Part shown: positions 10,145 through 62,760 of the stretch, piece after piece | Layout of the letters: each line of letters opens with the position of its first letter | How positions within the stretch are numbered: position 1 is the stretch's first letter | Source: Limobrevibacterium gyesilva | GTDB lineage: Bacteria > Pseudomonadota > Alphaproteobacteria > Acetobacterales > Acetobacteraceae | Assembly (NCBI RefSeq): GCF_025989185.1 | Contig: NZ_JAPDNT010000017.1 | Location: 1-64,000 of the forward strand | Direction: 5' to 3' | Length of the DNA: 64,000 nt | Translations under genes and position numbers: made by a program | The notes under the pieces: generated by a model | Databases searched by the model: none | The model's input: only the letters and a program-made list of their open reading frames with translations | Told to the model about the DNA's origin: nothing

Positions 10145-10677
10145 CGCCACACCCAGAGCGGGCGGGCGACGTCCCGCACGTTCGCGATCGGAATGGTGCC
10201 GAAATATCGGCTGTCGAAGCTCCGCGGATCGTGCCTGGACAGCAGCCACACCGTGTCTCGCGCGACCCGGTAAAGCCCGGCCGGCACGGGCCGCAGCGCC
10301 CGGCCTGCCTCGTCCTGGGCAAGCGGCACACTGCTCGGGACGGGCGCGCCGTTGACGGTGATCCCGTGCGTGGAGACAACGACCAGGTCGCCGCCGATCG
10401 CCGCGACCGGCTTCACGAGAGGCTCGCTGCCGCCCGGGCAAGCTCCGGCCGAGACGTAGCCGCGCCGTATCGCCTCACGCACCGCGTCGCCTTCGGGCAG
10501 ACACACGGTGACCACCTCGCCGCGCGCGGGGAACGGCAGGGACGATTCTATCTTCCAAAGCCCGACCGGCATGGAGGGCGTGACATTCACCCGCACACCG
10601 CCCGCGTCCGCGGCTGCGAGCGTTCCCAGCACCGCCGCCACGACGGCGCAGACTGCGACCTCCCCACGCCGCATCAT
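10141..10677 (-). CDS. traF: TraF, conjugative signal-peptidase-like protease
   Basis: 178 residues, S26 peptidase family. One N-terminal membrane segment (VAVCAVVAAVLGTLAAADAG), then NVTPSMPVGLW with the nucleophile Ser and PLVKPVAAIGGD with the general-base Lys, and a C-terminal DSRYFGTIPIANV block matching the GDSRYFG box of signal peptidases. In RP4, TraF matures and cyclises the TrbC pilin. Start at 10677 overlaps the traG stop (ATGA). Its substrate gene trbC is not in the window, so it must be elsewhere on the replicon if the system works. Confidence 0.92.
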   Translation of the reverse strand: MMRRGEVAVCAVVAAVLGTLAAADAGGVRVNVTPSMPVGLWKIESSLPFPARGEVVTVCLPEGDAVREAIRRGYVSAGACPGGSEPLVKPVAAIGGDLVVVSTHGITVNGAPVPSSVPLAQDEAGRALRPVPAGLYRVARDTVWLLSRHDPRSFDSRYFGTIPIANVRDVARPLWVWR

Positions 10678-12536: not shown

Positions 12537-12547
12537 TGCGGGCGGCC

Positions 12548-12588
12548 TCCGGGCAATACAATATTATCTATGTAATGTATTGCCCGGA
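12548..12588. promoter_or_regulatory. 13-bp inverted repeat at the traI-traG junction
   Basis: TCCGGGCAATACA (12548-12560) is repeated in inverse orientation as TGTATTGCCCGGA (12576-12588) with a 15-base AT-rich loop. It spans the end of traI and the gap before traG. There is no U-tract on the coding strand, so it looks more like an operator, attenuator or mRNA-processing hairpin than a simple terminator. Confidence 0.6.
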
Positions 12589-36910: not shown

Positions 36911-38434
36911 ATGACCGACCTCCCGGATGCGGTGGCGGCGGCCGCGCACGACCCGCTGGTCATCACCCTGCTTATTTTTGCTCTGGGCGGGCTGCTGACG
37001 CATCTCTTGTTTCGCAAGCAGCCGCTCGGCCGGGCGGTGGCGCGGGTGATCTTCCTGATCGCCCTGACGATCGTCCTGCTCCGTGCTGGGGTCGTCCCCT
37101 ACGAGGCGCGGTATCTGGCGCCGACGTCGTTTCAGGTTGCGGTTCACGGCACCTTGAAGATCGCGTGGTGGCTGTTGGCGGCGTGGTTCCTGGTCGGCGT
37201 CTTGCGCGCCTTCGTCGTCACCGAACACCGGCCGCGCGAGGGCAAGTTGGTTCAAGACCTGCTCGCTGGCGTGATTTATCTCGCCGCCGTCTTTGCCATC
37301 ATCGCCTATGTCTTCGATCTGCCGATCCAGGGCCTCCTCGCAACCTCGGGTGCCATCGCCATCATTCTCGGGCTGGCGCTGCAGAGCACATTGGCGGACG
37401 TTTTTTCCGGCATTGTGCTGACTTTCAGCCGCCCCTACCGCCCAGGCGACTGGATCAGCATTGACGGCAGCACCGACGGCCGGGTCATCGAGATGAACTG
37501 GCGCGCGACGCATGTGCTGACCGTGAACCGCGATCTGGCGATCGTGCCGAACAGCGCCATCGCCAGGGCGAAGATCCTCAATGCCAGCTCCCCCTCCGGT
37601 ACCCACGGAATGACGGTGACGATCCAGCTCGATGCCAAGACGCCGCCCGGCGCCGCCGGAGAGATCCTCGAGCGCGCGATGCTGAACTCGCGGCTCATTC
37701 TGGCGACGCCGCCCTCTTCGATCATTGTCAAATCAATTACCGCCAGCTCCACCGAATTCGACATAACATTCTTCGTCGAGGAGTTGGCCCAGGCCTCACG
37801 CGCTCAGAATGAACTGTTCGATCTGATTTTCCGGCACTTGGCGGCCTCCGGCGTTGAACTTGCCGCGACCCAGAGCCAACCGTATTCGCCCCTGCAGACC
37901 GCCGCGTCGCAACGTGCGGCCAACGGTCCCGAACGGGCGCTCAACCTGGTCGAGATCTTCGCCACCTTGACGGCAGAAGAGCGGCAATCGCTGGCCCCAA
38001 AGCTGAAGCAAAGGACCTACGATCGCGGCGAGACCCTGGTGGATCCCGGGATGGTGCTGCACTCGCTGTTCATCATTGGGGCAGGTGTGCTGTCGGTAAC
38101 CAGTGTTGTTTCCGAGGGTGGTATCGAGCTGATGCGCCTCGGCCCGGGCGATCATTTCGGCGAAATCGGGCTGCTGACTGGGGCTGCCGCCACGGCCAAG
38201 ATATCGGCCCTCGTGCCGACCACTGTCTACGAGCTGACAAAGGACGATTTGGCACCAGTCCTGGAGGCGCGCCCGCCGGTCGCCCAGGAACTGTGCCGCG
38301 CCCTTGCTCGGCGTCAAGCGGCAGGCCAGCTGATCCCCTCTCCTGCTATCGACAAGACCATATCGGCAAATCGGGTGGCCAGTTGGTTCGCCGACCGGCT
38401 GCACAGGCTGTTCGATCTCACATCTTCCAAGTAA
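36911..38434 (+). CDS. MscS-type channel fused to a cyclic-nucleotide-binding domain
   Basis: 507 residues. About four membrane segments (HDPLVITLLIFALGGLL, RVIFLIALTIVLLRAGVV, WWLLAAWFLVGVLRAF, LLAGVIYLAAVFAIIAYVFD) and the pore helix GAIAIILGLALQSTLADVFS. Then the MscS beta domain (SRPYRPGDWISIDGSTDGRV, NRDLAIVPNSAIARAKILN). The C-terminal third is a cNMP-binding domain (RGETLVDPGMVLHSLFIIGA, LMRLGPGDHFGEIGLLTG). Similar chimeras (bCNG channels) are gated by cAMP rather than tension. Its last 17 bp overlap the convergent OLD gene. Confidence 0.92.
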   Translation: MTDLPDAVAAAAHDPLVITLLIFALGGLLTHLLFRKQPLGRAVARVIFLIALTIVLLRAGVVPYEARYLAPTSFQVAVHGTLKIAWWLLAAWFLVGVLRAFVVTEHRPREGKLVQDLLAGVIYLAAVFAIIAYVFDLPIQGLLATSGAIAIILGLALQSTLADVFSGIVLTFSRPYRPGDWISIDGSTDGRVIEMNWRATHVLTVNRDLAIVPNSAIARAKILNASSPSGTHGMTVTIQLDAKTPPGAAGEILERAMLNSRLILATPPSSIIVKSITASSTEFDITFFVEELAQASRAQNELFDLIFRHLAASGVELAATQSQPYSPLQTAASQRAANGPERALNLVEIFATLTAEERQSLAPKLKQRTYDRGETLVDPGMVLHSLFIIGAGVLSVTSVVSEGGIELMRLGPGDHFGEIGLLTGAAATAKISALVPTTVYELTKDDLAPVLEARPPVAQELCRALARRQAAGQLIPSPAIDKTISANRVASWFADRLHRLFDLTSSK

Positions 38435-40139
38435 GCGAGCCCCGCACCGGCGAGTCCTCGGCGATCCAAGGGATCACCTCGTCCAGGTTGGCAAGAGCCG
38501 TATCCGGTGGCAGATGCAGGCCCAGCCTCTGCTTGAGGCATCGGGCGATGTCCGCCACAAACGCCGGCATGATGTCTCTAGCGAGCAGTTGCTCCGCCAC
38601 ATAGCGGGCGATCAGCGGCTTGTTCTTCCCGGTTCCGATGCCAAGCGCTTGCCGCGCCTCGACGTCCAACCGGTTGTAGAGACCGGCCTCGATGGTCTCC
38701 AGGTCGCCCTTCGTCTGCGTTTCCCAGTCGCCGGCCAACACGGCGTGGTTTTCCGTCACCTGTGCCGGCGGCGTGTCCGTCTCGTCGATCCCGAGCAAGC
38801 GACAGATGACGCGGTTGGCAGTCGGGTTCTGAGACCGTGCGCCCATGTCGTTGTCGAAGATGACGTAGGTGGGGATTTTGTGTGCACGGTAGACCTGAAT
38901 GAGCGTGTCGATCGCCGTCTTGCCGTTGGCCGCGACAATCGAAACGCCTTCATCGTCAAAGCGCAAGCCGAGATGCGCGCATAGCAGGGGAAGCGCCTCG
39001 CGCTCGGACGGCCCTTCGGCCACGATCACCAGCCGCGCAAAATACGGCTCTGCCATCTCCGCCGTCCGCACGTTGCGCAAGAAGGCGCGCATGGACGCTA
39101 CGGTCATGGGCTTGTCGGGGTGGAGCTGCTTACGGGCGGCGAGAAGGGCCGCGGCCGTCGTCGTGCGAACCTGGGTGCAAACTTCGTCCTCGTCGTCCGG
39201 GCAACATTCGACAACGACGACGCGCTCCGGCCGGGTGATGTCAAGAAACGCCGCGCTGTGGGTCGAGATAAAAAGCTGATTGCCGTCGGCAACCAAGCCT
39301 TCGAACTGCGCCATCAGACTGCGTTGCGCGTGCGGGTGCAGAAAAAGTTCCGGCTCCTCAATGCCGAGGATCGCGCCGCCCTTGAACGCGCGCGCGAACG
39401 CATGAAACAACGCGAGCACCAGAAGATTGCGGACGCCCGATCCGGCCTCACCCGGGGATTTGGCAGCACCCCGCTCAATCAATGTCGGATAGAGGCTGCG
39501 ATACAGATTGGTTTCGTCGATCGTGCGGAACTGGAACTGCACGTCATAGCGCGAGGTCCGCAACTGATCGACGAATGCGCCACGCAGCGCCGATTCAAAG
39601 CTGGTGTAAAGGTCGGTCTTGAGCAGACTATGTGCCTGATCGAGCAGTGCGCGGAGCTGCGGGAGTCGGTCGCTGCCGGATCGCAGCAGGTCATCATGCA
39701 GGAAACGCACAGCCTGGCCGAACAGGCTCCATCGCGAGGCGCCAAATTGCCGGTCGAAGCTGCGGCTGGCATCGACATAGGCGAAGGCAAGTCTCGCGCG
39801 CTCGTCGTTGTCAAATCCGCCGCGAACGGCCTGGCCGTGCCGGTCATAAGCCTGGAAGACGTATCGCTCGCGCGAGGTGTCGAAGACCAGCCGCGAATAG
39901 GGCGCGTCCTCGAAGTCCGGCTGAATGAAAATTTCCCGCCGGCGGTCGCTGAGATAAAAATCGCTGTCGAGCAAATTACCAGGCATGGGCCAGCGGTCGC
40001 CCATCAGGAAGTTGATCGCACTGAGGATGTTGGTCTTGCCGGCGTTGTTGGCCCCGACGAGGATCGTCATGTCGGCCGGCTCGAAGTCCGCGTCTTTGAC
40101 CGAGCGCCAGTTCCGAATGATGACGCGGGAAATTCTCAT
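38418..40139 (-). CDS. OLD-family ATP-dependent endonuclease (AAA + TOPRIM)
   Basis: 573 residues. N-terminal ABC/SMC-type ATPase: ISRVIIRNWRSVKDADFEPA with P-loop ILVGANNAGKTNILSAINFL, and Walker B in AILGIEEPELFLHPHAQRSL. The C-terminal TOPRIM nuclease has LVIVAEGPSEREALPLLCA (Glu) and TYVIFDNDMGARSQNP (DxD). OLD nucleases act in phage exclusion or as the GajA half of Gabija; no UvrD-like helicase partner is adjacent, so this is a stand-alone class 1-type OLD. Its ATG is only 14 bp from an inserted IS, which must have displaced its promoter. Confidence 0.92.
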   Translation of the reverse strand: MRISRVIIRNWRSVKDADFEPADMTILVGANNAGKTNILSAINFLMGDRWPMPGNLLDSDFYLSDRRREIFIQPDFEDAPYSRLVFDTSRERYVFQAYDRHGQAVRGGFDNDERARLAFAYVDASRSFDRQFGASRWSLFGQAVRFLHDDLLRSGSDRLPQLRALLDQAHSLLKTDLYTSFESALRGAFVDQLRTSRYDVQFQFRTIDETNLYRSLYPTLIERGAAKSPGEAGSGVRNLLVLALFHAFARAFKGGAILGIEEPELFLHPHAQRSLMAQFEGLVADGNQLFISTHSAAFLDITRPERVVVVECCPDDEDEVCTQVRTTTAAALLAARKQLHPDKPMTVASMRAFLRNVRTAEMAEPYFARLVIVAEGPSEREALPLLCAHLGLRFDDEGVSIVAANGKTAIDTLIQVYRAHKIPTYVIFDNDMGARSQNPTANRVICRLLGIDETDTPPAQVTENHAVLAGDWETQTKGDLETIEAGLYNRLDVEARQALGIGTGKNKPLIARYVAEQLLARDIMPAFVADIARCLKQRLGLHLPPDTALANLDEVIPWIAEDSPVRGSLTWKM

Positions 40140-41580: not shown

Positions 41581-42249
41581 GTGGGCGTCACGACAGAGTT
41601 CCTTGATGCAGCTGCTGTGATCGCCGAGCGATCGACAGCCCCGCTGCTGTTTCATTGGCCTATGCCGGGCAACCTGGGTGGCCTCCTCAAATTCGCGACC
41701 TTCGCCGAGTGGCGCGATTTCGTGCTGCAGTTTGGCTTGCGCGACGGCATCCCGGACATTGTGAAGGCAAAATTCGACCGCGCGCACAAGCTGCATGTGC
41801 TGGCATGGGTCGATCCCGACCTTCTCAAAGCCGGCGAGCAGGTTGCCCTCACGACGCTCGAACTCGCCCTGAAAGATCGCTACGGCCACAAGGTGAGAGA
41901 CAAGCGCGGAAACATCCGGTTCGCGAACGCGCTCCGCTATATGGTCGAGAGTGACGGCCTGACAGACGACCAGGTGCCGATGAATCGTCGCTGCGGGCCG
42001 CCATCTACAGTCGTGGGCCGTCTCACCGGCGACGTGAGGCCAAGCCTCGCTGATATGCGAAACGACCTCGCGCATGGCTACCCGTTCGATGGCCTTCCAC
42101 ACTCAGGTCTCTTGGAATTGGTGCGCGACCTGATCGAATACGCTTACCGCGACATGATCGGCGCGGCGGTGGGCCTCATTCCGCATCAGAATTCCGCATC
42201 AGAACTGCCGAGTGAATCCGCCGACTCCGAGCCGATGCGGGAATTTTGA
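41581..42249 (+). CDS. HEPN-like hypothetical protein
   Basis: 222 residues from a GTG at 41581, preceded by GGAGG; the frame is open but unlikely upstream. Near the C-terminus, SLADMRNDLAHGYPFDGLPH contains an Rx4H motif (R-N-D-L-A-H), the catalytic signature of HEPN RNases, followed by a long helix (LLELVRDLIEYAYRDMIGAA). The N-terminal part (LLFHWPMPGNLGGLLKFATF) is not recognised. HEPN proteins often act as toxins or in phage defence. No obvious MNT antitoxin adjoins; the next gene is HhH-GPD-like. Confidence 0.6.
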   Translation: MGVTTEFLDAAAVIAERSTAPLLFHWPMPGNLGGLLKFATFAEWRDFVLQFGLRDGIPDIVKAKFDRAHKLHVLAWVDPDLLKAGEQVALTTLELALKDRYGHKVRDKRGNIRFANALRYMVESDGLTDDQVPMNRRCGPPSTVVGRLTGDVRPSLADMRNDLAHGYPFDGLPHSGLLELVRDLIEYAYRDMIGAAVGLIPHQNSASELPSESADSEPMREF

Positions 42250-42347
42250 GTTTTGCGTGGAATGGCATTGCCCGCCGGCCTTGGTTCCGTAGTCAATGCC
42301 TCGCTATGGTGTCATATCGAACCGAAATGACGATGGAGGGCGCCTTG

Positions 42348-43049
42348 GTGACCGAGGGCAGTACGGAGCCGGAGCGACTTGCGATCTATATCAAATCCCT
42401 CCCGGGATTCGAAAAATACACTCAGATCGATGGCAACTATGGCCACGTCGGTGCGGCCCTGGCTGACGCGGTCTTGCAGTCAAACAACGACTATGAACGG
42501 AATGTCCGGCACCGCATCGCGCGCATCCGGAAAATGTATGCCCGCGAGACGAGTCTCCAGGACCTCAAGCAGCTGCTCCAGCGGATCACGGCCGCGGAGT
42601 TCCTCGACTGGAACGGAACGCGGAAGCCCGCAACCTTCTTGGATTTGGTTGGCCTACTCGGGCGGGAAGGCGTGAATACCGAAGACGACTTGCGTAAGTG
42701 GCTCCCGGGGGAGGAAAGCAGCACGAAGTTGCGCGAAATACACTTTATCGGTCCGAAAACTGTGGATTATTTGAGAATTCTGGTCGGCTTGCCTTTTGCG
42801 GCCATGGACCGCCACCTACTCGGGTTCCTCGAATGCGCCGGGATAGGGAAGTTCAACTATGCCCGCAGCCAGGAAATCGTCCACCGGGCCGCGGATTTGC
42901 TGGGACTGGATCGGGCGCACCTGGATCACAGCATCTGGCGCTACATGAAGGGTGGGAAGGCAGCGGTTCCAGGCGGAACTCGGCTGCATCTCGGCTGCGC
43001 CAGATCTGCTGACCGACGTAAATCGCACAGCGCGAAACTCTTCAGATGA
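42348..43049 (+). CDS. HhH-GPD-like hypothetical protein
   Basis: About 233 residues from the GTG at 42348, which has GGAGGG 7 bp upstream (42335-42340); in-frame ATGs at 42306, 42327 and 42333 are alternatives. A helix-hairpin-helix region is visible as REIHFIGPKTVDYLRILVGL followed by PFAAMDRHLLGFLECAGIG, resembling the HhH-GPD core of endonuclease III-like glycosylases with the conserved Asp in AMDRHL. No iron-sulfur cysteines. The C-terminal 25 residues are basic and low complexity. Partner or substrate unknown; it closely follows the HEPN-like gene. Confidence 0.6.
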   Translation: MTEGSTEPERLAIYIKSLPGFEKYTQIDGNYGHVGAALADAVLQSNNDYERNVRHRIARIRKMYARETSLQDLKQLLQRITAAEFLDWNGTRKPATFLDLVGLLGREGVNTEDDLRKWLPGEESSTKLREIHFIGPKTVDYLRILVGLPFAAMDRHLLGFLECAGIGKFNYARSQEIVHRAADLLGLDRAHLDHSIWRYMKGGKAAVPGGTRLHLGCARSADRRKSHSAKLFR

Positions 43050-43903: not shown

Positions 43904-44018
43904 GGGAACTTAGCTGCCCGGTTGTGAGGCCTCCTTGGCGGCTTCAGCCGTTCATTGTGGCCGGAAGGCACGTTCTCACGCCATCCGGCATTTCGGGTCT
44001 CCTACCTGTCCTCGTATG

Positions 44019-44705
44019 TCACAGAAGCCGGCCCGCAGGCACTGCGGCGCCCGCTGCGGCATCCTCTTTCGCCCCCTGCGCCACGATCCGCAGCGTCCCG
44101 TCCGGCAGCGGTCGTTGCAGCTTCAGCGCGTCCACCGCCGGCGCGGCCATCCACGTGATCATCTCCTCGGGTGTCCGCAGGATCACCGGCATGGCCTTCG
44201 GATGAATGGCGCCCACCTCCGCGTTCGGGTTGATCGTCAGGAAAGCGAAGATGTCGTTGGTGGTCTCGCCCTCCCGCACCTTCCGCACGGAAGTCCACCG
44301 CGTCCATATGCCAGCGAAGCAAGCGAGCGGCCGGCTTTCGTCGAAAGCGAACCATACCGGCGCTCGCCCGCCGAACGAGCCGTTGTCCGGCTCGGCGAAG
44401 CTATTGAACGGCACCAGGCAGCGGCTTTCGACGCTGAGCCAGCGCCGCCAGTGCGGCGACGTGGCGTTGCGAACGTTGGTGACGCCAGGATCGGACTTCT
44501 TGCCCTCAAGGAACTTGGGCGGCGTCGGCATGCCCCATCGCGCCATGGCTAGCTCGCGCCCCGCGGGGGAGTTGCGCACGATCGGGGCCGCATAGTCGGG
44601 ATATACGCCCGGCATCGGCGGCAGATTGCCGGTGTTGTCCACGTTGACGCGGAACAGGCGCCGGATCGCCTCCTGGTTCGTTGTCATGGAATAAAGATTG
44701 CACAC
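44019..44705 (-). CDS. SRAP/YedK peptidase, canonical Cys2 form
   Basis: 228 residues. A GTG start at 44705 is chosen because it places Cys at position 2 (M-CNLYSMTTNQEAIRRLF), the residue that crosslinks abasic sites in SRAP (HMCES/YedK) proteins. Other active-site parts: PGVYPDYAAPIV, MARWGMPTPP, NVRNATSPHWR (Asn), CLVPFNSFAEPDN (Glu) and VGAIHPKAMPVILRTPEEM (His). It protects single-stranded DNA by forming a thiazolidine crosslink at abasic sites. Last gene of a four-gene operon behind a LexA box at 45913; 16 bp from the second SRAP gene. Confidence 0.92.
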   Translation of the reverse strand: MCNLYSMTTNQEAIRRLFRVNVDNTGNLPPMPGVYPDYAAPIVRNSPAGRELAMARWGMPTPPKFLEGKKSDPGVTNVRNATSPHWRRWLSVESRCLVPFNSFAEPDNGSFGGRAPVWFAFDESRPLACFAGIWTRWTSVRKVREGETTNDIFAFLTINPNAEVGAIHPKAMPVILRTPEEMITWMAAPAVDALKLQRPLPDGTLRIVAQGAKEDAAAGAAVPAGRLL

Positions 44706-44721
44706 GGGCGGAATTCCCTCG

Positions 44722-45327
44722 TTATGCCGGTGGCCACGCCGACCTTCTCCCCTGGACCGGCCTGAGCACAAGCATGTCGCCGGCAGGTGGACGCAGAAGG
44801 GTCACGGGATCGCCCGGCGTCTCGCCCAGCCACACCGGCCAGTCCGGTTCATCGAGCACGAGCGGCATGCGATCGTGAATTTCGGCGATAGCGCCGGTGG
44901 CCTGCACCGTGACGATACAGTAGGTGCGCACGACCTCGCCGTCCGGCCGCCGGAAAGCCTCCCACAGCCCCGCGATTGCCATTGGCTGGCCGTCCCGGCG
45001 GGAGATGGCATACCGCTGTCCCGGCGCGCCGATGGTCCGCTGCTGGTAATATTCGGTGGCCGGCACGAGCGCCCGACGATGCCAAAACGCGTCGGCGAAC
45101 ACGGGAAGCTCGGCAACGATCTCCGCACGCGCATGGATAGGCCGGGGCGCCCTGTCGGGGTCCTCTGTCGCATATGGCAACAGGCCCCAGGTCAGCCAGT
45201 CGAGGTGCCGCTGCCCCGTCCGTGGGTGCAACCGGATAACCTGTCCCGGCCGGCCAGGACCGGCTCCCGCTCCGAAATCGAGGCTACCGGGATCCCCGCC
45301 GAATAAGTCGCCCGTGGCTGTCGCCAT
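44722..45327 (-). CDS. Second SRAP-family protein lacking the N-terminal catalytic Cys
   Basis: 201 residues. The SRAP core is clear (LTWGLLPYATEDPDRAPRPI, HARAEIVAELPVF, RRALVPATEYYQ with the Glu, AEIHDRMPLVLDEPDWPVWL with the His). The chain begins MATATGDLFGGDPGSLDFGA, so the Met-Cys start and about 20 residues of the usual N-terminus are replaced, and no upstream in-frame segment supplies them. It may bind DNA without crosslinking or act with the canonical protein. Operon position between the 104-residue gene and the canonical SRAP. Confidence 0.85.
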   Translation of the reverse strand: MATATGDLFGGDPGSLDFGAGAGPGRPGQVIRLHPRTGQRHLDWLTWGLLPYATEDPDRAPRPIHARAEIVAELPVFADAFWHRRALVPATEYYQQRTIGAPGQRYAISRRDGQPMAIAGLWEAFRRPDGEVVRTYCIVTVQATGAIAEIHDRMPLVLDEPDWPVWLGETPGDPVTLLRPPAGDMLVLRPVQGRRSAWPPA

Positions 45328-45378
45328 CGCTCGCCATCCTGTCCGCTGGGACTGGCCGTCACGCCTCCGGCGGCGTGG

Positions 45379-45693
45379 CTATCGCTGTCTCGACGTGTCC
45401 ACGACCAGTATCTCGCGTAGCTTCCGCGTGGTCTTTCCATAGCTCGCGACCCTCACCAGGATCACCCGCTTCGGCGTCCCCCGGCATCGTTCCCGGCCTC
45501 GGAACCCGTCGCAGTGCAAGCGCCTGATGACGTCGGCAACGTGCGTCCGTGCGCCGAGGCACTCGGCCAGATTGCTGAGCGGCAGCACGACGTGTCGCCA
45601 ACATCGCCCGCACTGGATATGGAGCTGCCACTCCTTCATGTCGCCAAGCAGCGTTGCCGGCACCGGGTCGGCATTGAAGGGCAGCTCGGGCAC
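45379..45693 (-). CDS. Hypothetical zinc-ribbon-like protein of the SRAP operon
   Basis: 104 residues from 45693, 3 bp after the previous stop. Cysteines are arranged as HIQCGRCWRHVVLPL and LHCDGFRGRERCRG, suggesting a small metal-binding site; the ends are basic. No named family. It is the second gene of the SOS-box operon, so a role in DNA damage response is likely by position only. Confidence 0.65.
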   Translation of the reverse strand: MPELPFNADPVPATLLGDMKEWQLHIQCGRCWRHVVLPLSNLAECLGARTHVADVIRRLHCDGFRGRERCRGTPKRVILVRVASYGKTTRKLREILVVDTSRQR

Positions 45694-45696
45694 GGG

Positions 45697-45906
45697 TCAC
45701 TGGCCGCGCCCGACGGGCGCACGCACGACCTCCAACCCGGCGCCGCGCAGCGCTTCGACCAGATACTCCGCGCACACGCCGCAGAGAAGCATGTCAGCCG
45801 ACCGCGGCAAGCGTCCGCCGCGCGCGATCGCGGCCCGCAATGTCTCGACCACCTCTTCATCCGGGACAATGGGTTGAGGCTCGGGAAACAGGCTGCCGTG
45901 AGTCAT
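45697..45906 (-). CDS. Small hypothetical protein, first gene of the SOS-box operon
   Basis: 69 residues from the ATG at 45906; an ATG at 45918 lies inside the LexA box. Visible: VPDEEVVETLRAAIARGGRL, SADMLLCGVCAEYLVEALRG with a CxxC. No ribosome binding site precedes it, and the LexA box ends only 6 bp upstream, so translation may be leaderless. It is followed closely by three further genes (gaps 3, 51 and 16 bp). Confidence 0.6.
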   Translation of the reverse strand: MTHGSLFPEPQPIVPDEEVVETLRAAIARGGRLPRSADMLLCGVCAEYLVEALRGAGLEVVRAPVGRGQ

Positions 45907-45912
45907 GAGCAC

Positions 45913-45927
45913 GAACATAAAGAGAAC
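45913..45927 (-). promoter_or_regulatory. LexA (SOS) box, alphaproteobacterial type
   Basis: On the minus strand GTTCTCTTTATGTTC matches GTTC-N7-GTTC, the LexA operator of alphaproteobacteria, with no mismatch. It lies directly before the operon that ends with two SRAP genes, whose family is named for SOS association. Confidence 0.8.
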
Positions 45928-46193
45928 ATTCGACCGGAGTCGAGTCGGATAACGCCGAAGCCGGTGATCCTAGCCGGTGATGCCCGCGACACCTGGCTGG
46001 AAGCTGGTCCGCCCACCGCGCTCAAACTGCAACAACCCTGGCCGGCCGATCGCCTGCCCATCATCGCTGCCGCCCGGACCGCGGCTTGGCAGCCCCGCGG
46101 GTCTTCCCGTCTGCGACAACGGTTTCCGCTGTCTGTGACAGGGATTTCCTTTCGCTATGGGAGGCAATGCGGGGTTTCGCCGCGGTCTTGCGT
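45928..46193. other. Region between the SOS operon and the S24-type repressor gene
   Basis: 266 bp without supported ORF. It contains the promoter of the SOS operon and the 3' flank of the repressor gene. Confidence 0.4.
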
Positions 46194-46937
46194 TCAGCCG
46201 CGGGTCCACGGCGCGGAAGACCGCCCCTCCGGCTGGTACGACCCCACCACGACCGCCGGGATCGAGAAGCGGTCCTCGCCCACCTTCCACATGCGGCCGT
46301 CGTTCGGCCAGGGACAGGCGATCGGCTGCTGATGGTCGGGATGGGTCGATCGCGGCCACAGCCACGCCTTGCCGCCCGCCACCTCGAGCTCGCGCACCAT
46401 CACCTCCACATGGCCGTCGCGAATGCGCTGGACAATCAGGCGCCGGCCTGTGGCTGGCGGCTCGTCGCAGTGCAGGAACGGCAGGCAGGCCAGGACGGTG
46501 CCTTCCGGATAGAGGAGCTCGGCGCCCGGCCGCCCGACCGCCACTCCGAACACGCCGGCGGCGAGCATGCCGGCGTCGACCGGCATGGCGGCTTCCGACT
46601 GGTGGTCCAGCGGCAGATCGAAGGACGGGTTCAGCCTGCCGGCGCAGGCCTCGGCGCGCACCGGGATGCCCCGGGCACCCGAGGGCCCGGCGCCGCCGGT
46701 CAGCGAGTCGAGGGTCTCGCCGGGCATGACCCTGGCCAGCTTCTCGTAGGTCTTCTGCGACAACGCCCGGCTGCGTCCGTTCAGGAAGTTGTAGATCGTA
46801 TTGGCATTGCTGAGCCCCGTCTGGCGGGCGAGCTCCGCCGGCTTCAGGCCGTGCCTGTCCATGGCCCGATGCAAGGCCTCGCGGCGCAGCTCGGCTTTGG
46901 CCTCTTCTTCCCTCGAACTCGAACCGCCTTTCGACAT
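46194..46937 (-). CDS. HTH/S24-like repressor
   Basis: 247 residues. The HTH near the N-terminus is MDRHGLKPAELARQTGLSNA followed by NTIYNFLNGRSRALSQKTYE. The C-terminal half has the LexA/CI-like beta fold (MLAAGVFGVAVGRPGAELLY, RRLIVQRIRDGHVEVMVREL). The usual GDSM nucleophile is not present (GRPGAELL instead), so self-cleavage is doubtful. Divergent from an XRE gene at 47090 across a palindrome, which suggests a phage- or ICE-like genetic switch. Confidence 0.8.
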   Translation of the reverse strand: MSKGGSSSREEEAKAELRREALHRAMDRHGLKPAELARQTGLSNANTIYNFLNGRSRALSQKTYEKLARVMPGETLDSLTGGAGPSGARGIPVRAEACAGRLNPSFDLPLDHQSEAAMPVDAGMLAAGVFGVAVGRPGAELLYPEGTVLACLPFLHCDEPPATGRRLIVQRIRDGHVEVMVRELEVAGGKAWLWPRSTHPDHQQPIACPWPNDGRMWKVGEDRFSIPAVVVGSYQPEGRSSAPWTRG

Positions 46938-48661: not shown

Positions 48662-48943
48662 ATGGATCTGAACCGGACACGGCATGGCGAACAGCAGCAT
48701 CAGCGGCGAGCGACGCTCGGCCTGTTCGAGATGCTCATCCTCGATCACGGCACCCGCGTGCGCAGCCATGGCGCCGACATCGTCTTCCTCGACAAGGCCG
48801 CGAAGAAGCGGATCCGCAAGGAAGTCGGCGGCGACCGCGGCATGCGGGTCTTCGACCGCTGGCTGAACTCCTACCTCGTCGTCGCCGACGACGGCTCGAT
48901 CATCACCACCGCCCGGCGCACACGCCGGGTGAAGCGGTCGTGA
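48662..48943 (+). CDS. Hypothetical protein, first gene of the UDG-like operon
   Basis: 93 residues from the ATG at 48662. Visible: LGLFEMLILDHGTRVRSHGA, DIVFLDKAAKKRIRKEVGGD and WLNSYLVVADDGSIITTARR. It is small, basic and alpha/beta. No family recognised; the pattern of a charged hairpin followed by a strand suggests nucleic-acid binding (inference). The stop overlaps the next start (GTGA). Confidence 0.6.
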   Translation: MDLNRTRHGEQQHQRRATLGLFEMLILDHGTRVRSHGADIVFLDKAAKKRIRKEVGGDRGMRVFDRWLNSYLVVADDGSIITTARRTRRVKRS

Positions 48944-49773
48944 CCGCGACTCTCCGAACCCAACCCGACAAGGACTCTCCAGCCGCAATGGCAAACCTCG
49001 GCACCATCGACCTCGACCGTTTCGCCACCGTCGCCCGTAACGCGGGCATCGGGAATCTCAGCGACAGCCCCGCCCTCACCCTTGCACAGGAGGGCCGCGT
49101 GTCCGTGCAATGGGCCCCCTTCGACCATGCGCCGCCGACCGCGCGCCTGGTCCTGGTCGGCATCACGCCCGGCCGCGAGCAGGCCGAGAACGGGCTGCGC
49201 GCGTTCCGGCAGGCACTCGTCGCGGACGCGCCGCTCGTCGAAGCGCTGCGGCGCGCCAAGCTCGCCGGCAGCTTCAGCGGCTCGCAGATGCGCACCAACA
49301 TCGTCGACATGCTCGACAGCGTCGGCGTGAACCGTGCCCTCGGCGTACCGGGCTGCGCGGCGCTGTTCGAGCCGGCGCATGAGTTGGTGCACTTCACCTC
49401 GGCCCTGCGCTACCCGGCCTTCGTCGACTGCGCCAACTACAACGGCACGCCGGACATGCTGCGCACGCCCCTGCTGCGGCAGATGGTCGAGACCTTCCTG
49501 GCGGCCGAGGCGCGGGCCCTGCCCGGCGCGCTGTGGCTGCCGCTTGGCCCGAAGCCGGCGGCGGCGCTGCGCCACCTCGTCTCCCGCGGCGTCCTGCCGG
49601 CGGGCCATGTCCTTAAAGGCATGCCGCATCCGAGCGGCGCGAACTCGGAGCGGATCAAGTTCTTCCTGGGCCTGAAGCCGCGCTCCGCGCTGTCCGCGAA
49701 GACTCCGCCCGAGCCGATCGAGAGGGCCCGCGAGGCGCTGCTGGCCCAGGTCGCGCAGCTGCGGGTGGCCTGA
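48940..49773 (+). CDS. Uracil-DNA-glycosylase-superfamily-like protein
   Basis: 277 residues from GTG 48940 (internal ATG 48988 possible). Motifs of the UDG fold: RLVLVGITPGREQAENGLRA as motif 1, HFTSALRYPAFVDCANYNG, ALWLPLGPKPAAALRHLV and the C-terminal LKGMPHPSGANSERIKFF with the HPS motif. The catalytic Asp/Asn of classic UDGs is not obvious in GITPGREQ, so it may be a divergent member. Placed in an operon with DNA-binding genes, it may act on foreign or damaged DNA. Confidence 0.75.
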   Translation: MTATLRTQPDKDSPAAMANLGTIDLDRFATVARNAGIGNLSDSPALTLAQEGRVSVQWAPFDHAPPTARLVLVGITPGREQAENGLRAFRQALVADAPLVEALRRAKLAGSFSGSQMRTNIVDMLDSVGVNRALGVPGCAALFEPAHELVHFTSALRYPAFVDCANYNGTPDMLRTPLLRQMVETFLAAEARALPGALWLPLGPKPAAALRHLVSRGVLPAGHVLKGMPHPSGANSERIKFFLGLKPRSALSAKTPPEPIERAREALLAQVAQLRVA

Positions 49774-55424: not shown

Positions 55425-58382
55425 TCATGCCGCCCTCCTTTCCCGGCTGAGGTTCAGCGGCCGGCGCTGCCCCGCGGTCGCGGCGGCACGGTCCCACAGG
55501 AAGTCTCCGGAGAAGCCGATGTGCTCCCAGGAGAGCGGCGAGGTATGGGCCAGCAGTCCGGCGGACACGGCTTGGCTTTCGCTGCGAAGGTGATCGACGG
55601 CATCGGCCAGATAGGTCGAGTTCCAATAGACGATGGCGGCGATCACCAGATTCAGGCCCGAGGCACGGAATTGGTGCGCGTCCTGGCCGCGATCGGCGAT
55701 GCGCCCCTGCTTGAAGGTGCAGATGACCTGGGCAAGGGCGTGGCGCTGCTCGCTCTTGTTCAGGCCCGCTTGGCAGAGTTGGCGGAGCTGCGGTGATTCC
55801 AGCCAATCCAGCATGAACAGGGTGCGCTCGATCCGGCCCAGCTCCTGCAGGGCGAGGCCGAGCTGGTTCTGGCGCTGGAATGCCGCCAGCCGCTTCAGCA
55901 TCGCGGATGGCAGGACTGTGCCCGCCTGCAACGACGCAACCAGGCGCCGCACCTCGTCCCAGTGCTCGCGGATGACGTCCGTCCGGATGCGCCGCCCGAA
56001 CAGCGGCTGCAGCTCCTTGTAGGTGGCGGCGGGCTCGATGCAGGCGAACTTGCGGTCGGGGAAGTCGCGCAGCCGCGGGCAGAACCGGAAGCCCAACATG
56101 GCGCAAAGGATGAACACGTGGTCGGACGCGCCGCCGGTGTCGGTGTAGTGCGTGCCGATCCGCAGCGCCGTGCCGTGATGCATCAGCCCATCGAGCACGT
56201 ACGGCGCTTCGTGGCTGGTCGCCGACATGACGCGCGCGCTGTAGGGACCATGCTGGTCGGAGACGTGCGTATAGAAGCCCAGCCCGGGATCCTGGCCGTA
56301 GCGCGCATTGACCTCGCCGGCGGCGTCGCCGCGCTTGGCGGAGCGGAAGAACTGCCGGTCCGAGGAGGAGGTGCTGCCGTCACCCCAGATCGTCGCGATC
56401 GGCAAGGCGTGGTGCGCGTCGATGATGCGGGCAAGCGCCGCCTTGTAGGTCTCGGGGCGGATATAGGCACCGGCGGTCCAGATCAGCTTGTCGCGGGTGA
56501 CGCCGTGGCTCGCCGCCGCCATGCGGCCCAGACCGAGATTGGTTGCATCTGCCAGGATCGCGGCGAGCAGCGCGTTCCCGTCGTCGCAGCGCTCGCCGGT
56601 GCGCAGGTTGGTGAAGGCGGACGCGAAGCCAGTCGCGCGGTTCACCTCGTGCAGCAACTCGGTAATCCGTACGCGCGGCATCATCGCCTCGATCCCGTCC
56701 GCGAAGGCGCGGCCCTCTGGCGTGACGGTCGCTTTGACCGGCGACACCTGCAGGCGACCATCGCGGTATTCGATCCCCTCCAGCTCGCCTCGCTGCAGCC
56801 GGCGTGCGAAGCGCTTCAGCCGGCGATCGAGCTCGGTGCCCTTGGTCGACAGCCATTCATCGGCCGTCACTGGCAGGCCGAGTTCCGCCGCGACCGCCGG
56901 AACGGCCGGAGAGGGCAAGAGGTAGCTGTCGAACCGGCGATAGCTCGACGAACGTTCGACCCAGATGTCGCCCGAGCGCAGCTTGTCGCGCAGCGTGGCG
57001 AGCACCGCCGTCTCGTAGAGGCGCCGGTTCGGCTGCCCTCCCTTCAACACCAGGCGCCGCCAGTCCTTGCGGAACGGCATGGGTGCGTCCGGGGGCACCT
57101 CGCGTTTCGCGGACCGGTGCATGTCGATGAGCAGCTGCAGCGCCGCCAGCATCGGGTCACCGGCGCGCGCGGCGCGGAACTCCAGCGCCTCGATCAGATC
57201 GGGCGCGAACTTGTGCAGGGTCTTCCAGCGATCGGCGGCTCGGAGCAGCGGATCCTCCTCGGCCAGGTTGGCCAGATCCGCGACCTCGCCGCGCACGCGC
57301 AGCAGCTTCGCCCAGCCGACCGTCTCGTCCACTGTCTCGAAGGCGTCGTGCTCATCGGCCTGTGCCGTGGCGAGCGCGTCGATCGTGCCGTGGAACAGGC
57401 GCATCAGCCGGCCCACATCGCCGGCGCTGGCCGCGTAGCGGCGGCGCGTGGCGTTGCGTGCCTTGGCGAACAGGCCGCCGATGAGCTTGTCGGCCATGTC
57501 CAGCACCGCATCGGTCAGGCGTGCCTCAAGATCGAGGACGGTGGCGACCAGGATCGCGCGGCGTCGGCGGGCGGCATAGCGGCCGAGTTGATGGGCGTCG
57601 GAAGCGTGGCCCTCGCGTACGAACTGCCGCAGCCGCTGCTCATCGATCTGCGCGGCGATTTCGGCGGGCAAGCCAATGTCACGTACCCGGCGCAACCGGT
57701 CGAGCAGTTCGCGCACGTGGTCCGCCTTTGGGGCGACCGGCATCGCCTTGAGCCAGGCGAACGGCGTCATGTCCGCCGCGGCGTCGCGCACGAGCAGTTG
57801 GTCGAGTTTGGCCGTCTGCTCGTCGGACACTTCCGCAAGCAGGGCATCCGTCGCACGCCGGCGCGCGCGGGCTCGGCCAGCAATCGCGGCGCGCTCGATG
57901 ACGCTGCCGGCCGGCAGGATGATGTTCGCCGCGCGCAGCGCGGAGGCAACCGCGGCGGCGATGGGCTGCCCGCGGTCGGTGCTCCAGGCGGCCTGAGCGG
58001 CCACCTCGATCATCATCGGCAGGTCGGTGTTCCCCGGCGGGCGAAGTCCCAGGGTTTTCGCGAGAAGCCGCGCGTGGTCCGTCAGGGTCTGCGGGCGGCG
58101 GGCATATTCGGCGAACGGCGCGGCCAGTATCTCGAGCTGTCTTGCCAGCCACTGAACCAGCGGCTCGGCAGGCTGCTCCAGCTGCGCCAGGGCAATGCCG
58201 GGATGACGAAGCAGAGCGAGCTGGACGGCGAAGCCGATCCGATTGGCATCCCGACGGCGTTTCGCCACCAGCTCCCGGTCGGCGCGCGACAGGGTGAAGC
58301 AGCGCGCCAGGTTGTCGGCGTCAAGCGGGATGCCGAGAAGAGCTTGCCGTTCCTCGTCGGTCAGCAGCTGCCGATGCGCCAT
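55425..58382 (-). CDS. tnpA: Tn3-family transposase TnpA
   Basis: 985 residues from the ATG at 58382 with GGAGGAC upstream (the open frame starts earlier at 58451 without support). N-terminal DUF4158 region (LLTDEERQALLGIPLDADNL, RCFTLSRADRELVAKRRRDA). The DDE catalytic part includes ATIWGDGSTSSSDRQFFRSA (Asp), HYTDTGGASDHVFILCAMLG and the DAHQFRASGLNLVIAAIVYW NS block near the end. Length and motifs are normal; likely functional. Confidence 0.96.
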   Translation of the reverse strand: MAHRQLLTDEERQALLGIPLDADNLARCFTLSRADRELVAKRRRDANRIGFAVQLALLRHPGIALAQLEQPAEPLVQWLARQLEILAAPFAEYARRPQTLTDHARLLAKTLGLRPPGNTDLPMMIEVAAQAAWSTDRGQPIAAAVASALRAANIILPAGSVIERAAIAGRARARRRATDALLAEVSDEQTAKLDQLLVRDAAADMTPFAWLKAMPVAPKADHVRELLDRLRRVRDIGLPAEIAAQIDEQRLRQFVREGHASDAHQLGRYAARRRRAILVATVLDLEARLTDAVLDMADKLIGGLFAKARNATRRRYAASAGDVGRLMRLFHGTIDALATAQADEHDAFETVDETVGWAKLLRVRGEVADLANLAEEDPLLRAADRWKTLHKFAPDLIEALEFRAARAGDPMLAALQLLIDMHRSAKREVPPDAPMPFRKDWRRLVLKGGQPNRRLYETAVLATLRDKLRSGDIWVERSSSYRRFDSYLLPSPAVPAVAAELGLPVTADEWLSTKGTELDRRLKRFARRLQRGELEGIEYRDGRLQVSPVKATVTPEGRAFADGIEAMMPRVRITELLHEVNRATGFASAFTNLRTGERCDDGNALLAAILADATNLGLGRMAAASHGVTRDKLIWTAGAYIRPETYKAALARIIDAHHALPIATIWGDGSTSSSDRQFFRSAKRGDAAGEVNARYGQDPGLGFYTHVSDQHGPYSARVMSATSHEAPYVLDGLMHHGTALRIGTHYTDTGGASDHVFILCAMLGFRFCPRLRDFPDRKFACIEPAATYKELQPLFGRRIRTDVIREHWDEVRRLVASLQAGTVLPSAMLKRLAAFQRQNQLGLALQELGRIERTLFMLDWLESPQLRQLCQAGLNKSEQRHALAQVICTFKQGRIADRGQDAHQFRASGLNLVIAAIVYWNSTYLADAVDHLRSESQAVSAGLLAHTSPLSWEHIGFSGDFLWDRAAATAGQRRPLNLSRERRAA

Positions 58383-58499
58383 CCTTGTCCTCCGATAAAG
58401 GGCGGCGACCCTACGGGGCAGCTGTCCGGCAAACGACCGTTGAACGGTCAACGCCGGAATGTCCGGAAACCCTGGACAGCAGATGGGTAGCCGGACAGG
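58383..58499. promoter_or_regulatory. res site of the Tn3-family transposon
   Basis: The gap between divergent tnpA and tnpR carries the short inverse repeats TGTCCGG/CCGGACA (58422, 58458 and 58490 areas) and GACCGTTGAACGGTC (58435-58449). This is the expected place for resolvase-binding subsites and for both promoters. Confidence 0.7.
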
Positions 58500-59081
58500 A
58501 TGGTTGCCGGACGGGAAAGCGGACAGCCTGCCGTGGCAAACGTCGGCTACGCGCGCGTCAGCACGGTCGACCAGGATCCGGCACTGCAGCTCGACGCGCT
58601 CGCGGCGGCTGGGTGCGTGAAGATCTTCGAGGATCGCGCTTCGGGAGCGCGGGCCGATCGCGCCGGGCTGCGGTCCGCGCTCGACTACGTGCGCAACGGC
58701 GACGTGCTGATCGTCTGGAAACTCGATCGCCTCGGTCGCTCACTGCCGCATCTGATCGAGACCGTGACGTCGCTGGCGACGCGTGGCGTCGGGTTCCGCT
58801 CCATCACCGAGGCGATCGACACGACGACGCCGGGCGGACGCCTCGTCTTTCACCTGTTCGGGGCATTGGGCCAGTTCGAGCGTGACCTGATCCAGGAGCG
58901 GACCCGCGCGGGCCTCGCCGCAGCCGCGGCGCGCGGCCGAAAAGGCGGACGCAAGCCCGTGGTCACCGGCGAGAAGCTCGAACGCGCCCGCGCCATCATC
59001 GCCAAGGGATTGACGGTGCGCGAGGCCGCCACCCGGCTCAAAGCGGGAAAGACCGCGCTGTATGCCGCGCTACACGGCTGA
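58500..59081 (+). CDS. tnpR: Tn3-family resolvase TnpR (serine recombinase)
   Basis: 193 residues from 58500 (a GTG at 58533 would remove 11 residues). The catalytic domain is NVGYARVSTVDQDPALQLDA with the nucleophile Ser, then DVLIVWKLDRLGRSLPHLIE and GALGQFERDLIQERTRAGLA. The C-terminal HTH (KGLTVREAATRLKAGKTALY) binds res. Intact. Confidence 0.95.
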   Translation: MVAGRESGQPAVANVGYARVSTVDQDPALQLDALAAAGCVKIFEDRASGARADRAGLRSALDYVRNGDVLIVWKLDRLGRSLPHLIETVTSLATRGVGFRSITEAIDTTTPGGRLVFHLFGALGQFERDLIQERTRAGLAAAAARGRKGGRKPVVTGEKLERARAIIAKGLTVREAATRLKAGKTALYAALHG

Positions 59082-59167
59082 CAAACCGACGGCCGCGCCG
59101 CCATTCCGGGGATGTTCGCCGAAAGTTCGCTCTTAGCGTTGTTCAGCTGACAACCGACGCTATGCCC

Positions 59168-59969
59168 TCAATATGCGCGCCTGCAGAAGCAGGTGATGTT
59201 CGCCTTCAGCAGCAAATACGCGCTCGCGCTCTACGAGATGGTGCAGAAGCGCGGCAATCTGAAATTCAAAACCAGCGAAGAGTTTCCGGTCGAGCGCTTC
59301 CGCGCTTTGCTGGGCGTCGATCCGGGCAAGCTCGAAGCCTTCAAGAGCTTCAAGCAGCGCGCGATTGATCCGGCAGTGCTGGAGGTGAATGGCCTCGGCG
59401 AATTCGGCTGCAAGGTCGAGCCGTCGGCCTATGCGGGCCGCAAGGTGACGACGGTGCGGCTCTCCTGGTGGGCGAAGAATATGGACGAGCGCAAGCACGC
59501 CCTGAACGAGTTGCGTTTCAGCCGGGTCGGGCGCCGTGCGCGGCTCAAAGGCGAGGTCGTCACCGTGGCCACCGCCGGCCTGCCGCTGGCATCACCACAG
59601 GATGTTGCCTTGGCGCGGCTCGCTTCTTCGGAGCGGATTGAGGCCCCCCACCCCAAGATGTTGCCGTCAGGCCGACTAAAAGGGCAGGGGGATCAGCGGT
59701 CGCAGCGCCCCCACCCCAACTTGTTGCCGTCAGACGGTCCAAAAGGGGAGAGGGGTCAGAGCCCGGCGCCCCCCCACACCAATTTGTTGCCGTCGGGGGG
59801 CAGCAGGCTGACGGAAAGTCAGCTGCAGCGCTTCCGGCGCGACTTCGCCGGCCTCGACATTCCGTGGCTTGAGCGGGAGTTTCGTGAGTGGGTGGCGGAA
59901 CAGGATGAGCCGAGGGACTACGCCGCCGCGTTCTACGGCTTCATGAAGAAAAAGAAGGCGGAGATGTAG
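59168..59969 (+). pseudogene. Plasmid replication initiator (Rep_3/RepB type), N-terminus lost to Tn3
   Basis: The frame is open from the Tn3 end: QYARLQKQVMFAFSSKYALA, LYEMVQKRGNLKF, then EEFRALLGVDPG-like FRALLGVDPGKLEAFKSFKQ and the second winged helix KVTTVRLSWWAKN. The first winged-helix domain is largely missing. Three in-frame copies of a 21-residue unit (HPKMLPSG, HPNLLPSD, HTNLLPSG) interrupt the C-terminal part. The end is LEREFREWVAEQDEPRDYAA. It is the remains of a second or third replicon. A GTG/ATG at 59193/59196 could still make a short product. Confidence 0.8.
59646..59810 (+). repeat. Three in-frame 63-bp repeats inside rep
   Basis: Units begin with CACCCCAAGATGTTGCCGTC (59648), CACCCCAACTTGTTGCCGTC (59712) and CACACCAATTTGTTGCCGTC (59775), 63-64 bp apart, which keeps the reading frame (21 codons). 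They look like palindromic mobile repeats of the CCCC…GGGG type that insert into coding sequences. Confidence 0.7.
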
Positions 59970-61564: not shown

Positions 61565-61714
61565 ATGCCACTGACGCGCGAATTCAAGGAGCTGCTGCGG
61601 AAGCGGATCGCATGCGATCCAGCCTTCGGCGACGCGCTCCTGCGCGAAATCGACGACGCCAAACGATCCGGTGACATCGAGACCGCGAAGGCGATCTCAG
61701 GGATGGCGGCGTGA
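61565..61714 (+). CDS. Small antitoxin-like peptide
   Basis: 49 residues from the ATG at 61565. It has the pattern KELLRKRIACDPAFGDALLR and EIDDAKRSGDIETAKAI, helical like short DNA-binding addiction-module proteins. Its stop overlaps the GTG start of the Mrr-like gene. It links the TA pair to the nuclease in one operon. Confidence 0.55.
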   Translation: MPLTREFKELLRKRIACDPAFGDALLREIDDAKRSGDIETAKAISGMAA

Positions 61715-62760
61715 AGCGGCTGTGGCTCGTTCGGCTCGGAAAGAACGGCGAATTCGAAGCCGATGCGCTCGACAAATCGCTGCTGTCGATCGGCTTCAAC
61801 ATGACGACCGACCTGAGTGCTGCGAAAGACCGCGACGCAATCCTGGCCGTCGTGAAGACGACCTTCCCGGACGCGAAGCCGGGCCGGCAAACGAACTTCG
61901 CGGCGCAGGTGAACCAGTTCGTCAACACCATGGCGGTCGGCGACATCGTGGTCTCGCCGCTCATGACGCTCCCGAAGATCGGCATCGCCGAGGTCACCAG
62001 CCCCTATCAACAGCTTGAAAACGGACATCCGGCACGGCCAGTGAAATGGCTGACGACCGACGTGCCGCGCGACGCCTTCAAGCAGGATTTGCTCTTCAGC
62101 TTCGGCGCCATCATGACCGTCTGCGAGGTGCGGCGGAACGATGCGCTGAAGCGCGTTCTGGCTGTCGCCAAGGTCGGCAAAGACCCCGGCGACGGCGCGG
62201 CGCCCGACATGCCGGAGAAGATCACACCAGGCGAGACGAGCACCGTCGATGAGACTGACCAGGCCATCAATCTCGAACAAATCGCGCGCGACCAAATCGA
62301 GCGGCGGATTTCGAGCGTCTTCACCGGCCATGATCTCACGACCCTGATCGCGGCCATCCTGACGGCGCAAGGCTACGAGACAAACGTGTCGCCGCCGGGA
62401 CCGGATTCCGGGATCGACATCGTGGCCGGGCGCGGGCCGCTCGGTTTCGAGGAACCGCGCCTCGTGGTCCAGGTGAAGTCGGGTGACATCAACGTCGATC
62501 ATCCGACGCTGCAAAGTCTGATCGGCTGCGTGCAGGACACACATGCCGATCACGGGCTGCTGGTGAGCTGGTCCGGCTTCAAGCCGACCGTCCGCAAGCG
62601 AACCAACGAACTCTTTTTCCGTGTTCGGCTCTGGGGCCGCGAAGAAATCATCAGCGCGCTGCTCAGCGTCTACGACAAACTGCCGGAGGAAATCCGCGCT
62701 GAACTGCCGCTACGCCGCACCTGGACTCTGGTGCCAGAGGATGAGGAGGGCGGCCCTTGA
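61711..62760 (+). CDS. Mrr-like restriction endonuclease
   Basis: 349 residues from the GTG at 61711. The N-terminal half resembles a PUA/EVE-like winged module (MKRLWLVRLGKNGEFEADAL, VSPLMTLPKIGIAEVTSPY). The C-terminal half is a PD-(D/E)xK nuclease of the Mrr type: GHDLTTLIAAILTAQGYETN, PPGPDSGIDIVAGRG with the Asp, and RLVVQVKSGDINVDHPTLQS with the QxK motif. Mrr enzymes cut modified foreign DNA. Coupling to HigBA and an adjacent type III-like Res gene makes a defence cluster. Confidence 0.87.
   Translation: MKRLWLVRLGKNGEFEADALDKSLLSIGFNMTTDLSAAKDRDAILAVVKTTFPDAKPGRQTNFAAQVNQFVNTMAVGDIVVSPLMTLPKIGIAEVTSPYQQLENGHPARPVKWLTTDVPRDAFKQDLLFSFGAIMTVCEVRRNDALKRVLAVAKVGKDPGDGAAPDMPEKITPGETSTVDETDQAINLEQIARDQIERRISSVFTGHDLTTLIAAILTAQGYETNVSPPGPDSGIDIVAGRGPLGFEEPRLVVQVKSGDINVDHPTLQSLIGCVQDTHADHGLLVSWSGFKPTVRKRTNELFFRVRLWGREEIISALLSVYDKLPEEIRAELPLRRTWTLVPEDEEGGP

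Follow-up and report, generated by a model that had tools for sequence, protein, structure and literature searches.

What can an SRAP protein contribute to DNA repair if it has lost the catalytic residues of its family and is encoded directly beside a second SRAP protein in which they are intact? This question is raised by an operon in the window, i.e. the whole 64 kb stretch of Acetobacteraceae DNA analysed, where the genes for two such proteins, SRAP-B and SRAP-A, lie next to each other behind a LexA box. In the founding survey of the SRAP family, the cysteine was termed absolutely conserved (PMC3765255). The occurrence of SRAP genes in imuA-imuB-dnaE2, umuDC or dinB operons has been known since 2013 (Aravind et al. 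2013, PMC3765255). Those operons are likewise of the SOS type with an SRAP gene, and sometimes encode zinc-ribbon-like proteins, there together with Ku. The operon in the window differs from them in encoding two SRAPs, one of them without the catalytic residues, in containing no polymerase gene, and in its other small partners. SRAP genes in mutasome operons are thus already known; what is new is a clade of SRAP proteins without catalytic residues, SRAP-B, beside a live SRAP. A literature search, covering mostly papers available without subscription, returned no description of an SRAP clade lacking the catalytic residues.

Operon organisation and probable SOS control

The operon is located on the minus strand and comprises the following features:

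LexA box GTTCTCTTTATGTTC: 45913..45927, minus strand, perfect alphaproteobacterial GTTC-N7-GTTC
Putative promoter: 45915..45943, minus strand, TCGACT (45943-45938), 17 nt, then TTATGT (45920-45915), the box overlapping the proposed -10 element
p69: 45697..45906, minus strand, 69 aa, ATG start at 45906, small protein of a mutasome-operon family
p104: 45379..45693, minus strand, 104 aa, GTG start, CxxC-x29-C-x8-C, zinc-ribbon-like
SRAP-B: 44722..45327, minus strand, 201 aa, SRAP fold without Cys2
SRAP-A: 44019..44705, minus strand, 228 aa, GTG start, CNLY-type SRAP with Met-Cys2

An earlier note on this DNA had described a four-gene operon ending in two SRAP genes, with a perfect LexA box 6 bp before its first gene, and this description was confirmed. 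The genes are co-directed in the order p69, p104, SRAP-B, SRAP-A, with intergenic gaps of 3, 51, and 16 bp, and both SRAP genes match PF02586 (Pfam E-values of 1.5e-40 and 5e-23 for the two). The box at 45927-45913 ends 6 bp upstream of the p69 ATG at 45906, the start that is kept in both other copies of the cassette in the same genome. A further in-frame ATG at 45918, within the LexA box, is probably not the true start of p69.

Taken alone, the box in the window is no better than chance and proves nothing: GTTC-N7-GTTC occurs twice in the 64 kb against 1.45 expected, and 38 of 100 shuffled sequences reach two occurrences. It becomes credible because it recurs at the other copies in the same genome and at the same gene family elsewhere. 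In both other copies, the p69 ATG is preceded by a perfect box at a distance of 7 bp; the one on contig C32 is identical to the box in the window, the second one on contig C9 differs by one base, and the corresponding box of Acidisphaera reads GTTCTTAGTATGTTC. At the loci of the p69 family, a perfect box lies at most 80 bp upstream in 13 of 30 cases, for which the rough chance is 6e-29. Across the whole genome, the motif occurs 108 times, compared with 46 occurrences of a reversed control. The sequence CTCGACTC, followed by the box, is invariant in four aligned promoters, including that of Acidisphaera. A scan of the promoter region with the sigma-70 consensus gave no match. The conservation of the box, which had been set as a test, thus holds across the copies, and a conserved GTTC-N7-GTTC operator at a putative promoter is the pattern by which members of the LexA regulon are recognised. 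The operon is likely to be SOS-induced.

Copies of the cassette

The whole cassette is present twice more in the genome, namely on contig C9 at 84-86 kb (L078) and on contig C32 (L079). The p69 gene of the second C9 copy carries a frameshift. The 12 kb neighbourhood of the window operon was matched against the C32 copy, and the match ends at the cassette edges:

Homology block with the C32 copy: 43976..45927, minus strand, 79% nucleotide identity, reaching from the LexA box to slightly beyond SRAP-A

As the homology is confined to the stretch from the box through SRAP-A, the box and the four genes form one moving unit. The copies in the window and at L078 both reside on a single plasmid-like contig of 87 kb, of which the window is a part. 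Genes for a MobA/VirD2-type relaxase, a T4SS coupling protein, an S26-type (TraF-like) peptidase, a Tn3 transposase, a resolvase, and a Rep3-type initiator are located at 10141-14249 and 55425-59969 of the window.

SRAP-A

SRAP-A starts with GTG-TGC at 44705 and is the SRAP for which Met-Cys2 via a GTG start had been claimed; the start indeed yields Met-Cys. Its active-site set is complete, with Cys2, Asn77, Glu105, and His168, and thus corresponds to the Cys2, Asn, Glu, and His of YedK and HMCES. The GTG start followed by TGC or TGT is kept in the other copies of the same genome, in Acidisphaera, and in Rhodopila. The closest solved relative is PDB 2aeg (4.8e-50), the Agrobacterium protein Atu5096/AGR_pAT_140, which is a CNLY-type SRAP as well. 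From these residues we infer that SRAP-A crosslinks abasic sites in the manner of YedK and HMCES. The canonical SRAP of the MCGR lineage in this genome (G000:C43:7422-7889, L083/L193) is broken by three TGA stop codons, and the CNLY-type SRAP-A copies may therefore be its only live SRAPs.

SRAP-B

SRAP-B shares both the fold and the sequence family of YedK, HMCES, and SRAP-A. It matches PF02586 with 139 bits against a cut-off of 27.1, the match beginning at profile position 37. The AlphaFold2 model adopts the SRAP fold with a pLDDT of 87.5, residues 1-10 being below 50, and a Foldseek search of the model against the PDB gave 21 matches with E<0.001, all of them SRAPs, including HMCES and YedK. 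The protein had been described as lacking the N-terminal cysteine, and none is present at its N-terminus. An upstream cysteine start would have overturned this description; the in-frame region back to the stop codon contains neither a cysteine nor a fitting Cys start. The accompanying claim that the Glu and His site is kept is correct for the histidine only, since His151 corresponds to YedK His160 and Glu105 is replaced by Gln95. Further differences from E. coli YedK are Asn75 to His65, Trp106 to Gln96, and Trp68 to Ala53 (in the motif LLPYA), and there is no equivalent of Arg4. Arg77 and Arg162 are kept. The glutamate of the motif PATEYYQQ lies three residues before Gln95 and aligns with YedK Gly102. 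Trp68 of YedK is taken here to be the wedge at the abasic site.

The seven known SRAP-B sequences were compared with 58 canonical SRAPs. Cys2 is present in 58/58 canonical SRAPs and in no SRAP-B, Asn75 in 57/58 and 1/7, Glu105 in 58/58 and none, His160 in 56/58 and 7/7, and Trp or Phe at position 68 in 58/58 and none; the equivalents of Arg77 and Arg162 occur in 7/7 SRAP-B. The position of Glu105 is occupied by Gln in six SRAP-B and by Leu in one, that of Asn75 by His in six and by Asn in one (genome G747), and that of Trp68 by Ala, Gly, Asp or Asn. Other residues, among them Arg105, Tyr136, and Cys137, are conserved in SRAP-B only; Cys137, which is part of a TYC motif, is invariant in the seven proteins and present in about 2% of canonical SRAPs. 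Net charge does not differ clearly between SRAP-B and canonical SRAPs, and thus gives no sign of lost DNA binding.

The consequences of such losses can be read from mutants of YedK, in which the N-terminal Cys captures abasic sites and the E105Q exchange severely slows the enzyme (PMC9436759). YedK C2A becomes a lyase, and the lyase activity of C2A/E105Q is 25-fold below that of C2A; in Cys2-blocked YedK E105Q, the loss of β-elimination is not due to lost DNA binding (PMC9436759). Judged by its residues, SRAP-B resembles the C2A/E105Q double mutant with further losses, which makes crosslinking of abasic sites by SRAP-B very unlikely, and its lyase activity should be little. The non-crosslinking reading is stronger than first thought, because Glu105, Asn75, and the tryptophan at position 68 are gone in addition to Cys2. 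The combined loss of Trp68 and Arg4 may also weaken the recognition of abasic sites.

Distribution and evolution of SRAP-B

A SRAP-B profile was searched in 397 genomes of the family, 385 genomes of the class, and 39 genomes of the family to which G747 belongs. In addition, SRAP-B of the window was scanned against 84,980 species genomes, a scan that detects close relatives only, so that remoter SRAP-B could escape it. In total, seven SRAP-B genes were found in five genomes of two families: three in the genome of the window, and one each in a Rhodopila MAG (L037), Acidisphaera S103 (L038), G174 (L182), and G747 (L195), the last being of a different family. SRAP-B is thus rare, occurring in 2/397 of the sampled family genomes, and none was found above threshold in the 38 other genomes of the G747 family. 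Canonical SRAPs of the same family, checked with the omission of a few matches incomplete at the N-terminus, begin with MCGR or VCGR and keep the Glu. Among 72,556 plasmids, only SRAP relatives with less than 60% identity were found, none recognised as SRAP-B; phage and viral collections likewise contained only relatives below 60% identity, none shown as SRAP-B.

In a tree, the seven SRAP-B form one clade with 100/100 support and a stem length of 1.03, nested within the canonical SRAPs of Acetobacteraceae. The protein of G747, which has kept Asn75 and lost Cys2 and Glu105, is the deepest member. Between the copies in the genome of the window, dN/dS is 0.21-0.26, with values of 0.25 and 0.21 at dS 0.5-0.65; in comparisons with the other genomes, dS is near-saturated. 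The tree and these ratios show a single origin of SRAP-B and purifying selection. The possibility that SRAP-B is a pseudogene was rejected on the basis of dN/dS, the open frames, and the tree.

Linkage to the DnaE2 mutasome

SRAP-B lies beside a LexA box and/or dnaE2 at every locus where the contig allows this to be seen. In Acidisphaera, the operon runs LexA box-p91-dnaE2-AlkB-like oxygenase-SRAP-B-SRAP-A. In G174, one LexA box separates the diverging SRAP-B and p80-dnaE2-CNLY SRAP. In G747, SRAP-B is located behind a box and diverges from imuB-dnaE2, with no CNLY SRAP within 14 kb. In Rhodopila, SRAP-B is followed by SRAP-A, and the 2.2 kb examined upstream contain no perfect box. A CNLY-type SRAP with Cys2 is therefore encoded in the same locus as SRAP-B in 4/5 genomes, G747 being the exception. 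Conservation of the pair, another test that had been set, was thus found at the three loci of the same genome, in Rhodopila and Acidisphaera, and within the same locus in G174. The operon in the window contains no imuA, imuB, dnaE2 or any other polymerase gene; dnaE2 and imuB of this genome are located about 5 kb apart on another contig (C14), where dnaE2 has its own box.

The two small partners differ in how closely they follow this pattern. p69, p91, and p80 can be aligned as members of a single family of 70-90 aa, p69 sharing 28-34% pairwise identity with members other than its copies. A profile of this family found members in 52/150 Acetobacteraceae genomes and matches the window protein with 3.7e-28, a value to be read in the light of the profile including this copy. 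At 29 of 30 loci (L197-L226), the gene is either flanked by imuB and dnaE2 or placed immediately downstream of a LexA box. A perfect box occurs at most 80 bp upstream at 13 loci, imuB and dnaE2 are neighbours at 16 others, and L222 has neither. No Pfam or NCBIfam model covers the family. p104 carries two Cys pairs whose four residues are invariant in the three copies of the same genome and are also present in the p69-p104 pairs of genomes G014 and G052, which lie behind a box with no SRAP in the DNA examined there. It has no match in Pfam, zinc-ribbon models included, and its zinc-ribbon-like character is putative. p104 is absent from the SRAP-B loci of Acidisphaera, G174, and G747. Neither p69 nor p104 had a match among the plasmids.

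The earlier note had proposed the pair of an active and a non-crosslinking SRAP, with a zinc-ribbon-like partner, as a plausible new DNA-damage module. The conserved pair stands, and p104 is not a constant partner. The gene for p69 is no orphan: as its family normally sits between imuB and dnaE2, the module is to be regarded as a satellite of the DnaE2 mutasome, which is already known, and not as a free-standing new system.

Possible functions of SRAP-B

Since SRAP-B recurs elsewhere beside the same mutagenic repair genes, it has probably been retained as a helper without enzymatic activity and is not a decayed gene. Tentatively, and with slightly less than an even chance of being correct, the cassette can be understood as a DnaE2-mutasome satellite whose SRAP-A crosslinks abasic sites, while SRAP-B modulates their handling and forms no crosslink itself. 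Cleavage of LexA would free one promoter, and p69, p104, SRAP-B, and SRAP-A would be made together. Cys2 of SRAP-A would capture abasic sites in ssDNA as a reversible thiazolidine crosslink. SRAP-B, with its SRAP fold and some DNA-facing residues, would form no crosslink and show little lyase activity, and could bind the same DNA or repair complex as a non-catalytic partner. In this way, it might tune the capture of abasic sites by SRAP-A versus leaving them to the error-prone polymerase. That it modulates SRAP-A or the access of DnaE2 is a guess. SRAP-B may be likened to ImuA and ImuB, dead paralogues retained as scaffolds. The former is related to RecA but inactive, the latter an inactive polymerase (PMC3765255), and such dead paralogues are usual in the ImuA-ImuB-DnaE2 pathway. 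In a narrower and unlikely version, SRAP-B would be a dead SRAP, induced together with the live one, that is dedicated to opposing or licensing the crosslinking and holds open or releases abasic sites for error-prone synthesis by DnaE2. If it is true, the choice between protection and mutation at an abasic site would be set by the ratio of SRAP-A to SRAP-B.

SRAP-B might instead serve the mutasome as a subunit that binds DNA or protein, DnaE2, ImuB or RecA for instance, and have nothing to do with abasic sites or SRAP-A. This is possible, if rather unlikely. The retention of the fold despite the loss of the Trp68 wedge, Asn75, and Glu105 agrees with it, as do the SRAP-B-specific residues Cys137, Arg105, and Tyr136 and the position of the G747 gene by imuB-dnaE2 with no CNLY SRAP nearby. 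SRAP-like proteins have been listed as putative subunits of Y-family mutasomes (PMC12926913); those relatives, associated with UmuC-like polymerases, are DnaE2-independent, whereas SRAP-B is linked to DnaE2. However, the equivalents of His160, Arg77, and Arg162 would be free to drift in such a subunit and are kept in 7/7, and a CNLY SRAP shares the locus in 4/5 genomes. An improbable reading gives SRAP-B a reduced or altered chemistry, using its own N-terminal amine to form a Schiff base, or Cys137. YedK C2A still makes a Schiff base (PMC9436759), the His160 equivalent is invariant, and Cys137 is found in all SRAP-B compared with 2% of canonical SRAPs. Yet all seven SRAP-B have Gln or Leu in place of Glu105, the key acid-base residue for forming a Schiff base, and the N-terminal residues of SRAP-B are predicted to be disordered and are not conserved.

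The remaining readings concern the plasmid-like contig and gene decay. It is quite improbable that SRAP-B is a plasmid counter-measure blocking the host SRAP and so sparing plasmid ssDNA from crosslinks during transfer. Two cassette copies on a single 87 kb replicon with a relaxase, a coupling protein, and a Rep3 initiator would suit this role, but the copies of Acidisphaera, G174, and G747 are found with dnaE2, i.e. in a repair context, and SRAP-B was not recognised among the plasmids searched. That it is a functionless, decaying duplicate is hardly credible. The long stem branch, the catalytic losses, the frameshifted p69 in one of three copies, and the truly broken canonical SRAP on C43 in the same genome could be explained by decay; the frame, however, is open at all seven loci in two families and one clade, the dN/dS is low, the fold is predicted with high confidence, and the box is kept.

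The SRAP-B clade offers a natural tool for studying the choice that bacteria make between covalent protection and mutagenic bypass of abasic sites, being a selected clade without Cys, Glu, and mostly Asn that occurs with LexA-type boxes beside a live SRAP and a mutagenic polymerase. In addition, a family of small proteins that has no name so far emerges as part of the DnaE2 mutasome operon of Acetobacteraceae.

Further genes of the contig

A glycosylase and SRAP module, formed with an OGG-like gene at 42246 and a UDG-like gene at 48940 flanking the operon, was considered and rejected: the homology with the C32 copy ends at the cassette edges, neither gene is present at the other loci, and the matches are weak. 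The gene at 42246-43049 (plus strand, 267 aa) has a weak PADLOC match to OGG (8-oxoguanine glycosylase-like, 1.3e-6), with no Pfam or PDB support. The protein encoded at 48940-49773 (plus strand, 277 aa), 3 kb from the operon, matches the uracil-DNA glycosylase superfamily weakly, under the cut-off (E 0.0032), and, if this match is real, would make abasic sites. Just upstream of the operon, an XRE-type helix-turn-helix protein is encoded at 46194-46937 on the minus strand, for which Pfam supports the HTH only; by eye, its C-terminal half resembles an S24 (LexA/CI) repressor that lacks the serine.

The second perfect GTTC-N7-GTTC of the window lies at 59114-59128 on the plus strand, with the Rep3-type initiator gene 65 bp downstream. 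It could tie plasmid replication to the SOS response, although a single match of this kind is expected by chance. The same contig also carries defence genes, namely an OLD/GajA-like nuclease (38418-40139), an Mrr-type restriction enzyme (61711-62760; PADLOC PDC-S02, 7.5e-133), and the end of a type III restriction enzyme (62780-63967).
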